Shown: positions 28,433 to 62,906 of the stretch, one piece after another
Position numbering within the stretch: position 1 is the first letter of the stretch
How the letters are laid out: every line of letters begins with the position of its first letter
Assembly: GCF_900046455.1 (NCBI RefSeq)
Contig: NZ_FCOT01000012.1
Location: 186,001-250,000 of the forward strand
Source of the DNA: Cellulomonas timonensis
Lineage (GTDB): Bacteria > Actinomycetota > Actinomycetes > Actinomycetales > Cellulomonadaceae
DNA length: 64,000 nt
Direction: 5' to 3'
The notes under the pieces: model-generated
What the model was told of the DNA's origin: nothing
Database searches by the model: none
The model's input: the letters and a program-made list of their open reading frames with translations, nothing else
Program-made: the position numbers and the translations under genes

Positions 28433-28512
28433 GTCACCCCCTCTGGCACGTCATCCTGCCAGGCATATGGGGACATACTGGGCCGTAAGGGTCACATTTG
28501 TGGGTGAAGAGT

Positions 28513-28529
28513 GTGAGTGCGGCGCTCAC
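28513..28529. promoter_or_regulatory. Inverted repeat in the divergent promoter of two Wzz-like genes
   Basis: GTGAGTGC-G-GCGCTCAC is a near-perfect 17-bp palindrome (one mismatch per arm pair). It lies in the 173-bp gap between the two divergent genes, inside a wider pair of GGGCCGT (28480-28486) and ACGGCCC (28528-28534) arms. This is a candidate operator controlling both directions. No regulator gene is adjacent. Confidence 0.4.
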
Positions 28530-28605
28530 GGCCCGTATGCGGCTTTTGCCCGATCTATGCTGCGAGGACCGCGCTGGGCGACGGCCCCTCACGAACAGGG
28601 AGACG

Positions 28606-29527
28606 ATGAACCTCAAGGAGCTCGGCGGCGCGCTCGCGCGACGCTGGTACCTCACCCTCGCCGGGGCCCTTCTGGCGGTGGCCCTGTGCGTGCTGGCCTA
28701 CGTGCTGGTGCCCCCGACGTTCGAGTCCGGTGGCGACGTCGTGCTCCTGCCGCCGCAGACCACCGTGGGCGAGGGAGGCAACCCCTACCTCTTCCTCGGG
28801 GACCTCGACCAGGCGGTGGACATCCTCACCCGCTCGCTGATGTCGGGCGAGACAGTGGCCGACGTGGAGGACGAGGTGCCGGGCGCCGAGTTCGAGGTGA
28901 TCCCCGACTGGACCACCAGCGGCCCGATCCTGGTGATCACGGGCCGCGCGAGCACGCCCGTCGAGGCCGAGGCCGTGCGGGACGCCGTCCTCGACCGGCT
29001 GCCCGCAACGCTGCTCGCCTTGCAGGACACGCTCCACGTCCCCGCCGACGCCCAGATCGACTCGATGGTGCTCACCCAGGACCTCGAGCCCGAGGCCGTG
29101 ACCACGGCGCGGATGCGCGCTGTCACAGCCGCGGGCGCCGTGGGGCTCGTGGGCGCGGCGCTCGCCATCGGCCTGCTCGACGCGTCGCTCCTGGCCCGAG
29201 CACGGCGTGCGGGCCGGCCACGCGCGGGCGCCCGGGCAAGGGCGGGCGCGCGGACAACAGCGGAGGTCCAGCCTGAGGCCTGGCTCTTTTACCCATCTGA
29301 CGCTGCCGACGATCTTACGCCGGGAGGTATAGCTGGACGCTGTACTGGTGTGATCGGGGCCGCGGCTTCTCCACGTTCCTCCCCTCGTATCGGATCCTCG
29401 ACAACCAGTACCTGCTGCTGTTGATCGAGATCGGGGTGGTGGGCCTGATCGCGATGCCGTCCCGCGCTCGATCGCCGACCTGCGCCACCTGCTCGGCGCG
29501 CCACCCTCGCCGCCCGCACGGCGGTGA
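28606..29527 (+). CDS. Wzz-like chain-length protein, broken by an assembly artefact
   Basis: From ATG 28606 (CAGGGAG 4 nt upstream) the frame encodes a first helix (residues 17-36), an external domain (VLLPPQTTVGEGGNPYLFLGDLDQAVDILTRSL) and a second helix at about 170-188. A basic Ala/Arg-rich tail runs to about residue 225. From 29280 the sequence is Illumina adapter and a misplaced copy of the next gene, so the continuous ORF ending at 29424 has a false C-terminus. If 29280-29457 is removed, the frame continues as AVPRSIADLRHLLGAPPSPPARR and stops at 29527. That stop overlaps the ligase GTG by 4 nt, like its neighbours. The true protein would be about 247 residues. Confidence 0.75.
29280..29357 (+). 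other. Illumina Nextera adapter remnant (assembly artefact)
   Basis: 29280-29312 matches the transposase read-through adapter with three mismatches, including an exact 18-mer ATCTGACGCTGCCGACGA at 29295-29312. The following 8 bases, TCTTACGC (29313-29320), are the reverse complement of a Nextera i5 index (S517, from memory). The rest to about 29357 is degraded adapter-like sequence. The same adapter in the opposite orientation occurs at 61667-61703. This is not genomic DNA. Confidence 0.9.
29358..29457 (+). repeat. Misplaced 100-bp copy of 30523-30622
   Basis: Identical over 100 bp to 30523-30622, inside the downstream ligase gene (encoding GRGFSTFLPSYRILDNQ...), and attached directly to the adapter remnant. 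It is best read as the genomic part of a chimeric or read-through sequence, not a biological duplication. Confidence 0.9.
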
Positions 29528-30870
29528 CCAGCCCGCCACGCGCCTCCCCGGCCCGCCGGCTGGCGCTGCCGCGCGCCGACGTCGCGCCGTCGACGTTCGG
29601 CGACGGGGTCGGCCTGCTCAGCGCCTACGTGCTGCTCCTCATCGCGATCCCGTCCCGGCTGGTGCTCGCCCCGCTCGGCGGCGCCGGGACCCCCTCCCTG
29701 CTGCTCGGCTGCGGATGCGCGCTGTGGTGGGTGTGGCACCGGCTGCACCGCAGCGAGCCCGAGCCGGCCCCGCCCGCGCCGGTGCGCCGGACGGTGCTGT
29801 TGCTTGGCGCCGCGGTGCTGGCCAGCTACGTCAACGCGATGGCCCGCCCGATCGTCTCCGAGGAGGTCGGCACCGCCGACCTGGGGCTCGTGGCGCTGCT
29901 CGGCTGGACGGGCGTCGCGCTCCTCGCGCACGACGGCATCGCGGACCGTGAACGGCTCACGACGCTGCTCTCCCGGCTCGCCGTGGCCGGCGGAGCACTG
30001 GCCCTGGTCGGGATCGTGCAGTTCGCGACCAAGGAGTCGTGGGTGGACCGGATCGACATCCCCGGCCTGACGGCCAACGCCACCCTCGCGAACGTCTACG
30101 ACAGGGACGGCTTCGCGCGCCCGGCTGGCACCGCCATCCATCCCATCGAGTTCGGCGTGGCCGTGACGATGCTGCTGCCGTTCGCGCTGCACCGCGCGTT
30201 CCACGCGACCCACCTCGGCGCCCTGCGGCGCTGGTGGCCGCTGCTCGCGCTCGCGCTGGCCATCCCGCTGTCGATCTCCCGGTCCGCGCTGATCGGCGCG
30301 GTCACGGTCCTCGCGGTGATGATCCCGGCGTGGCCGCCCGTGCGGCGGCGCCTCGCCCTGCTGTTCGTCGCCGCGATCAGCGCGCTGGTCTTCGTCGGCA
30401 TCCCCGGCATGCTCGGCACGCTGACCGGCATGTTCACCGGCATCGGCGCCGATAGCAGCGCCCGCTCCCGCACCGACGGCTACTCCGTGGCGCTCGAGTT
30501 CGTGGCGCGCGACCCCGTCGTCGGCCGCGGCTTCTCCACGTTCCTCCCCTCGTATCGGATCCTCGACAACCAGTACCTGCTGCTGTTGATCGAGATCGGG
30601 GTGGTGGGCCTGATCGCGATGCTCGCGATGGTGGTGGCGGCCTGGACGGCGGCACGTCGGGCCCGGCGCGCGGCCACTGTCGAGGCCGACCGCCACCTGG
30701 CCCAGTCCGTGGCCGCGTCCGTCGCCGCGGGAGCCGTGAGCCTGGCCCTGTTCGACGCGTTCTCGTTCCCGATGGTGGCCGGCCTGCTGTTCCTCGCGGT
30801 GGGCATCGCGGGCGCCGTGGGGCGCATCGCCTGGGATGAGGGGGTCGCCAGCAGGCAGGCCCGGTGCTAG
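29524..30870 (+). CDS. O-antigen ligase/polymerase family membrane protein
   Basis: 448 residues with about 11 hydrophobic helices. The large external loop before the last helices contains ARSRTDGYSVALEFVARDPVVGRGFSTFLPSYRILDNQYLLLLIEIGVVGL, the Wzy_C/WaaL-type pattern with a conserved R/H-poor RGFGTF-like motif. The upstream RPAGTAIHPIEFGVAVTMLLP is also typical. It either polymerises or ligates lipid-linked repeat units outside the membrane; the sequence does not decide which. The GTG start overlaps the reconstructed end of the Wzz-like gene. Residues encoded by 30523-30622 recur as an artefact at 29358-29457. Confidence 0.88.
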   Translation: MTSPPRASPARRLALPRADVAPSTFGDGVGLLSAYVLLLIAIPSRLVLAPLGGAGTPSLLLGCGCALWWVWHRLHRSEPEPAPPAPVRRTVLLLGAAVLASYVNAMARPIVSEEVGTADLGLVALLGWTGVALLAHDGIADRERLTTLLSRLAVAGGALALVGIVQFATKESWVDRIDIPGLTANATLANVYDRDGFARPAGTAIHPIEFGVAVTMLLPFALHRAFHATHLGALRRWWPLLALALAIPLSISRSALIGAVTVLAVMIPAWPPVRRRLALLFVAAISALVFVGIPGMLGTLTGMFTGIGADSSARSRTDGYSVALEFVARDPVVGRGFSTFLPSYRILDNQYLLLLIEIGVVGLIAMLAMVVAAWTAARRARRAATVEADRHLAQSVAASVAAGAVSLALFDAFSFPMVAGLLFLAVGIAGAVGRIAWDEGVASRQARC

Positions 30871-60512: not shown

Positions 60513-61536
60513 CCGGGCTGCTGCCGGGCCCCGACGCGTCCGCGGCGCCGCCCGCCTCCCCCACGGCCGAGGCGGCGCTCGACACGCTGCACGTGGTGGT
60601 GCTGAGCTGGCACGGGCGCGACGACACGCTGCGCTGCGTCACGTCGGCGCTGGCAGACGGCTTGGCGCCCCACCAGGTGCTCGTGGTCGACAACGGCTCC
60701 GGCGACGGCCTGGAGGAGGCGCTCCGCGCGCTCGATCCCCACGTGCGGTTCAGGCAGACCGGGGCCAACCTCGGCTTCACCGGGGGGATGAACCACGGCA
60801 TCCGGGCCTGCCTCGCGGAGGGCGCCGGGCTCGTGTGCGTGCTCAACAACGACACCCAGGTCACGCCGGGGATGTTCGCGGCGCTCGTCCGCCATGCGGC
60901 GCCGGGCACTGCCGTGAGCCCCGAGGTCCGCTACCTGGACGAGCCGGAGGCCGTGTGGTTCGGCGGCGGGGTGGTCGAGGCCGATCGCGGCTGGCCCCGC
61001 CACCTCACCCCCGCCGAGCTGGCCCGGGACGACGTCGCCGACCCGACCCGGGTGCTGCGCGAGTCCCAGACCCTCGCCGGATGCTGCGTGCTCGCGCCCG
61101 CGGACACCTGGCGGGCCGTGGGGCTCTTCGACCCCCAGTACTTCCTGCTCTTCGAGGACGCGGACTGGAGCGCTCGGGCCCGCGCGCTCGGCGTCCGACT
61201 GGTCGTGGCCCGCGACGCGGTGCTGCTGCACGCCGTCTCGGCCTCGTTCACCGGGCCCGGCCGGCTGCTCTCGTCCTACTACTACGCGCGCAACGCCATG
61301 CGGTTCACCCGGCTGCGGGTCACCCGGCGCCCGGCGGCCCGGCTGCGCTTCATCCGCGACCAGCTCGCCCGGCCGGCCGCGCGGCGCATCCGCTCGGGCG
61401 ACGTGCGCGGCGGCACGTGGGAGGCGCTGTTCGCCGCCGCGGGACTGGCAGCCGACGCCCTGCGGCGCTACGGCCCCGCGCCCGGCGTCGTGCTCCGCTG
61501 CGCGCGCCGCGCCGCGCCTCCACCCCCCGCACCCCC
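60509..61536 (+). CDS. Glycosyltransferase family 2, 3' end lost to an assembly artefact
   Basis: At least 342 residues. VVVLSWHGRDDTLRCVTSALADGL, VLVVDNGSGDGLEEALRAL, TGANLGFTGGMNHGIRACLA, VLNNDTQVTPGMF (donor-metal motif) and LFDPQYFLLFEDADWSARARALGVRLVVARDAVLLHAVSASF are rhamnosyltransferase-type GT2 blocks. From 61537 the sequence is Nextera adapter. The stop the frame reaches at 61672 is therefore false, and the real C-terminus is missing. It probably ends within a few codons, since the basic Ala/Pro tail has already begun. Confidence 0.85.
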
Positions 61537-61703
61537 CTGTCTCTTATACCCCTCTGACGCTGCGCACGCTCCTCCCCGCGTCGCCCTCGCGCCCGACCCT
61601 GACCGTATTCGTATTGTCAGCGACTCTGTCGAGGCAACGCACCGTGCCTCCCACCGAGCTCCCGCCGCGTAGGATCGTCGGCAGCGTCAGATGTGTATAA
61701 GAG
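61537..61703. other. Back-to-back Nextera adapters (assembly artefact)
   Basis: CTGTCTCTTATA (61537-61548) followed by TCTGACGCTGC starts the forward adapter. TCGTCGGCAGCGTC and then AGATGTGTATAAGAG (61675-61703, 29 exact bases in all) ends the reverse one. Just before it, GCGTAGGA (61667-61674) differs by one base from the i5 index inferred at 29313-29320, and CCACCGAG at about 61651 resembles the P5 end. The middle is error-rich. No genomic content can be trusted here. Confidence 0.93.
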
Positions 61704-62906
61704 CCGGCGGCCATCCAGGTCCGCGGGCTGTCCAAGCACTACCGGATCTCCCATGACGACAACCGCCCCTCCACCGCGGGCGAGGCGTTGCTGCGCCGGT
61801 TGAGGCACCCCTTCCAACGCCCCGCGCTGGAGCGCTTCACCGCGTTGGACGGCCTGGACTTCGACATCGCGCAGGGCTCGGCCGTGGGCATCCTGGGCCG
61901 CAACGGCGCCGGCAAGAGCACGCTGCTCAAGCTGCTCACGCGGGTCGCGGCGCCCTCGGAGGGCCAGATCCGCCTGCGCGGGCGCGTCGGCAGCCTGCTG
62001 GAGGTGGGCACCGGGTTCCACCCCGAGCTCACCGGTCGGGAGAACGTCTACCTCAACGGCACGCTGCTGGGCATGCGGCGCGGGGAGATCCAGCGGCGCT
62101 TCGACGAGATCGTCGACTTCTCCGGGGTGGAGAAGTTCCTCGACACCCCGGTGAAGCGGTACTCGTCGGGCATGTACGTGCGCCTGGCCTTCGCGGTCGC
62201 CGCGCACCTGGACACCGAGATCCTCGCCATCGACGAGGTGCTGGCCGTGGGCGACGCCGAGTTCCAGGCCAAGTGCATCGACCGGATGCGCAGGTCCGCG
62301 CAGGACGGGCGCACGGTGCTGTACGTCAGCCACCAGGTGCAGACCGTCACCGCGCTGTGCTCCACAGCGCTGTACCTGGAGAACGGCCGGCTGGTGATGC
62401 AGGGCGACGTCGACGAGGCGATCGAGCTGTACCGCACCAGCCGGGACCGCGTGGTGCTGGCCGCCACGGACATCGAGCGCCGCGCCGGCACCGGCGAGCT
62501 GCGGATCACATCGGCCACCGTGTCGAGCCCGCTGTACCGCACCACCGAGGACAAGACCATCGAGCTGGTGGTGGGCGCCAACCCGTCGTTCATCGGCAAG
62601 TACTTCGTCTCGTGCCACATCAACGACCGCAACGGCACCACCCTCCTGCAGTGCGATTCGCGGGTGAGCGGCCTCTGGCTCGACGCGGGGCTCGACCAGA
62701 AGATCGCGCTCACCATCAGGTCGCCGTGGCTCAAGCCCGGGGAATACTCGGTGGACCTCTACGTGTGCGCCGCAGGGGTCCTCGACGCGTTCGAGGGCGC
62801 CGGCCGGTTCGAGATCCACCCGGTGCTGCCCTATGAGCACGCGGTGTCCGACGAGGGGCTCGAGAACGGCCTCGTCCTCGCCGACTTCGGCTACGAGAGG
62901 CGTTGA
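61704..62906 (+). CDS. Polysaccharide ABC exporter ATPase (Wzt-like), 5' end lost
   Basis: About 400 residues remain. The frame is coding from AIQVRGLSKHYRIS (61707 on), so only the first few residues are missing, hidden by the adapter; the ATG is not visible. Walker A GRNGAGKST, RGRVGSLLEVGTGFHPELTGRENVYLNG (typical of Wzt), signature YSSGMYVRLAF, Walker B ILAIDEVLAVGD and switch SHQ follow. Residues ~235-400 form the Wzt C-terminal carbohydrate-binding domain (IELVVGANPSFIGKYFVSCHINDRNGTTLLQCDSR). It drives export of a finished, lipid-linked polymer with the permease next door (3 nt apart). Confidence 0.93.
   Translation, partial: PAAIQVRGLSKHYRISHDDNRPSTAGEALLRRLRHPFQRPALERFTALDGLDFDIAQGSAVGILGRNGAGKSTLLKLLTRVAAPSEGQIRLRGRVGSLLEVGTGFHPELTGRENVYLNGTLLGMRRGEIQRRFDEIVDFSGVEKFLDTPVKRYSSGMYVRLAFAVAAHLDTEILAIDEVLAVGDAEFQAKCIDRMRRSAQDGRTVLYVSHQVQTVTALCSTALYLENGRLVMQGDVDEAIELYRTSRDRVVLAATDIERRAGTGELRITSATVSSPLYRTTEDKTIELVVGANPSFIGKYFVSCHINDRNGTTLLQCDSRVSGLWLDAGLDQKIALTIRSPWLKPGEYSVDLYVCAAGVLDAFEGAGRFEIHPVLPYEHAVSDEGLENGLVLADFGYERR

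Follow-up and report, generated by a model that had tools for sequence, protein, structure and literature searches.

Nextera Adapter Remnants Interrupt a Wzz-Like Gene and Recur Across a Cellulomonas Assembly

The Wzz-Like/Ligase Locus and the Composition of the Scar

The window, i.e., the complete stretch of 64,000 nucleotides of Cellulomonas timonensis DNA analyzed here, contains a Wzz-like (chain-length determinant) gene that starts at position 28606 and, downstream of it on the same (+) strand, an O-antigen ligase-like (Wzy_C) gene at 29524-30870. The left part of the Wzz-like gene (28606-29279) is true genomic DNA with 91% identity to C. cellasea over residues 1-214 and is cut off at position 29279. 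The Pfam Wzz family (PF02706) matched it with an E-value of 0.052, which is below the curated cut-off; the gene was called Wzz-like because of its position and homology, the homologous gene adjoining a Wzy_C-like ligase gene in many relatives. The downstream gene gave an E-value of 7e-13 with Pfam Wzy_C (PF04932; 49 bits vs. a cut-off of 31.7), and its predicted product is an O-antigen ligase-like Wzy_C protein.

The Wzz-like gene is interrupted by a scar at 29280-29457 (+). It opens with CTGGCTCTTTTACCCATCTGACGCTGCCGACGA, and a direct reading of the sequence shows that the Nextera mosaic end starts exactly at position 29280. The segment 29280-29312 corresponds to the Nextera read-2 read-through adapter (mosaic end plus s5; for the adapter text as given for trimming, see PMC6460022) and differs from CTGTCTCTTATACACATCTGACGCTGCCGACGA at three of 33 positions (29283, 29289, and 29293). 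An earlier note on this DNA had described adapter-like sequence with an exact 18-mer at 29295-29312; the adapter match held, and the longest exact run proved to be one base longer (29294-29312, 19 nt). The adapter is followed by the octamer TCTTACGC (29313-29320), the index-like tag of that note, which we identified as an i5 index, the reverse complement of S517 (GCGTAAGA; PMC7770539, PMC7589761). Adapter and index together show three mismatches in 41 positions, for which the base composition gives a chance expectation of about 2e-16 in the window. The standard TruSeq stem AGATCGGAAGAGC was not found in the window, which rules out TruSeq as the adapter type in favor of Nextera.

The next segment (29321-29357) consists of a degraded remainder of the P5 primer, with 16 matches in the 29 positions up to 29349, and a low-quality read tail of a few unassignable bases. 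The rest of the scar, 29358-29457, is a misplaced duplicate of bases 30523-30622 in the ligase gene, as the earlier note had stated. The identity extends over exactly 100 bp, both neighboring bases differ, and the copy is the sole exact repeat of at least 60 bp in the window. To the right of the scar, 29458-29503 is probably true DNA; its codon-position GC content fits the frame of the Wzz-like gene, and it is without an alignable counterpart in C. cellasea. The following bases, 29504-29527 (+), are conserved in C. cellasea and hold the GTGA border formed by the Wzz stop and the ligase start codon.

Related Adapter Remnants in the Same Assembly

The complete Cellulomonas assembly (4,057,828 bases or 4.06 Mb, 13 contigs) was searched for further remnants, which were counted from these searches and from fetched stretches of the assembly. 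The 24-base adapter stem was present with at most three mismatches at 20 places, whereas the reversed pattern gave none. A 70-base query composed of adapter, index, and P5, together with other searches, led to about 31 read-2-type places, and a read-1 query to about nine more remnants of the read-1 type, so that the assembly contains about 40 adapter remnants. At most of the read-2-type remnants the index was TCTTACGC or deviated from it by one or two errors, and the consensus over about 30 sites was TCTTACGC. The P5 match after the index comprised 21 of 29 positions at the site L029, compared to the 16 of 29 at the focal scar. At most read-1-type remnants the index was AGGCAGAA (N703; PMC7589761) or close to it, followed by the P7 primer, which was exact in 24 of 24 positions at L061. 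The use of a single index pair throughout the assembly identifies the remnants as products of one barcoded library and not of biology. No adapter remnants were found in six other Cellulomonas genomes.

These features largely agree with the known read-through contamination from Nextera or Nextera XT libraries, in which mosaic end plus s5, i5 tag, and P5 likewise follow each other in fixed order, as do mosaic end plus s7, i7 tag, and P7 at other sites, with one index pair assembly-wide. In contrast to the perfect copies at contig ends that such contamination can leave, the remnants described here carry two to seven stem mismatches and nearly all lie inside contigs. None in the assembly had zero or one mismatch to the 24-mer stem, and the differences from the stem were dominated by T>C and A>C changes. 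One remnant (L112, G000:C1:54-97) lies near an end of the 3,570-bp contig C1, and this small contig may end in junk.

Convergent adapter pairs were present at five places, 45-212 bp apart (L107, L111, L113, L116, and L136). At L113 (4819-5356, corresponding to G000:C13:380561-381098), a read-2 and a read-1 adapter converge, flanked on either side by the same 144-bp sequence; this site represents two overlapping contig ends that were left unmerged. Short-range duplications adjoin the adapter at L113 and L123. Locally duplicated copies were also considered as a general pattern of the scars, which was rejected: in a check reaching about 5 kb at the examined sites, the 100-bp copy of the focal scar was the only distant local duplicate. 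The recruitment of this copy is therefore not explained by the general pattern.

Comparison with C. cellasea

For comparison we used a genome whose locus matches Cellulomonas cellasea ET82. This relative is without an insert at the focal locus, at a second scar of the window (61537-61707), and at L115. The second scar contains an adapter on the + strand beginning at 61537 and a reversed adapter, tagged GCGTAGGA, whose end is at 61707; the scar fuses the end of a glycosyltransferase-like ORF with junk sequence. The match to C. cellasea stops at 61536 and resumes at 61708, i.e., exactly at the outer ends of both adapters. Between these positions the DNA of C. cellasea is different and comprises 64 bp, which likely include the ATG start codon of the downstream gene for a polysaccharide-export-like ABC-transporter ATPase. 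At L115, about 33 G-rich bases of C. cellasea are replaced by the adapter. The artefact can thus replace genuine bases.

A comparison with a close relative had been proposed in the earlier note as a check of the focal scar. The C. cellasea locus lacks the insert, but the linker 29242-29503 cannot be aligned, so that C. cellasea failed as a proof of the exact join and bases may have been lost at this site. After removal of the scar, the linker is 84 nt long, compared to 72 nt in C. cellasea. When a second origin of 29458-29523 was sought in the rest of the genome, no match was convincing, the best one being 82% over 44 nt.

Origin of the Scar

The mosaic end of Nextera derives from Tn5 and serves as a transposase site. 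A true chromosomal transposition or duplication would accordingly agree with the presence of a mosaic end and of a 100-bp direct repeat. However, the mosaic end is followed by library indices and P5/P7 flow-cell sequences, both here and genome-wide, and the adapter is missing from the relatives. The index and primer parts refute a transposition in practice, and we regard this explanation as exceedingly improbable. Instead, 29280-29457 is almost certainly an assembly artefact, composed of adapter read-through and, presumably, a gap-closing or scaffolding join, rather than a biological feature.

The scar can be traced to a Nextera XT library with the index pair N703/S517 and short inserts. Reads passing the end of a fragment continued through adapter and index into the flow-cell primer, and their base calls became increasingly erroneous. 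One such read probably served to extend the left contig edge at 29279 during gap closing or scaffolding, and the extension would have been joined to the 100-bp piece of the neighboring ligase gene, which was misplaced and provided the connection to the right contig edge near 29458. Convergent adapter pairs are the expected result when a gap is closed from either edge with reads of short fragments that had not been trimmed. The restriction to error-rich remnants is presumably a consequence of cleaner adapter copies having been trimmed or screened away. Convergent adapter pairs, a duplicated contig overlap (L113), and the replacement of genuine bases are also features of gap-closing misassemblies, which differ from the focal scar in that the latter additionally holds the exact 100-bp copy from 1.2 kb downstream. 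Literature searches on comparable artefacts of gap filling yielded nothing specific.

The earlier note had interpreted the site as adapter sequence plus a local copy in the wrong place, which is strongly supported, above all by the roughly 40 further remnants with one i5/i7 index pair. What the present analysis adds is the type of the adapter, the identity of the index pair, a count of remnants for the whole genome, and the demonstration that some scars lack genuine bases.

Reading Frame Across the Wzz-Like/Ligase Border

When 28606-29279 is read on to 29458-29527, a Wzz-like protein of 247 residues results, with a stop at 29527 and a 4-nt overlap with the GTG start codon of the ligase gene. 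This agrees with the earlier note, according to which joining 29279 to 29458 gives an end in PEAVPRSIADLRHLLGAPPSPPARR and a stop codon (29525-29527) that overlaps the GTG at 29524 by 4 nt. The note had further concluded that removal of exactly 178 nt restores the gene. Codon composition and the occurrence of GTGA borders support this frame, but the exact join is called into question by the sister scars in which bases were replaced.

If the scar were a pure insertion, exactly 178 nt would have been added and none lost, and the gene would read through PEAVPRSIADLRHLL to the stop at 29527. In addition to the continuation of the frame to the GTGA overlap, a 4-nt ATGA or GTGA border is found in five of 14 homologous pairs, and the linker length of 84 nt can be set beside the 72 nt in C. 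cellasea. The codon-position GC content of 29459-29523 is coding-like (0.86/0.68/0.90) and close to the pattern of both genes, which with 22 codons is modest evidence. On the other hand, a matching frame has a one in three chance of occurring anyway, sister scars have replaced real bases (64 bp at 61537-61707 and about 33 bp at L115), and C. cellasea keeps one open frame across the border. We consider an insertion of exactly this length possible, at somewhat less than even odds.

The frame in C. cellasea ET82 (L070 1501-3588/L078) comprises 695 codons and covers both genes, raising the question of whether the Wzz-like and ligase genes are one fused frame also in the window, with the scar hiding missing bases (1 mod 3). 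Read in the fused frame, the window gives AARTAVTSPPRA vs. AARTAVSSPPRA. In contrast, the two genes are separate in all 14 other homologous pairs, and the codon-position GC content of 29458-29523 in the fused (ligase) frame (0.91/0.86/0.68) is not coding-like. We therefore regard a fused frame as rather unlikely. Given the single frame in C. cellasea, the nearest relative, either its draft genome contains a fusion or a frame error at this place, or the window lacks bases. That a Wzz-like chain-length regulator is naturally fused to an O-antigen ligase-like protein and that the scar conceals this, possibly as a feature of this Cellulomonas clade, is likewise rather unlikely. The frame with the Wzz stop at 29527 is plausible and favored, the exact join being unproven.

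Consequences for Annotation and Use of the Assembly

The ORFs called across the scar, e.g., 28498-29424 (+), 29289-29519 (-), and 29315-29539 (-), would need correction before being annotated. The view that any gene model at 29280-29424 is false is strongly supported together with the artefact reading. Because about 40 similar scars are present in the assembly, gene calls over these are wrong as well.

The scar is of importance for data quality only and represents no biological novelty. About 40 such scars occur in a single Cellulomonas assembly with a completeness score of 99.98%, and all of them are too degraded to be recognized with fewer than two errors against the 24-base adapter stem. 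They truncate or alter genes, give rise to spurious ORFs and duplications, and can conceal bases that truly belong to the organism, and the common index pair provides a simple search for finding and masking them.
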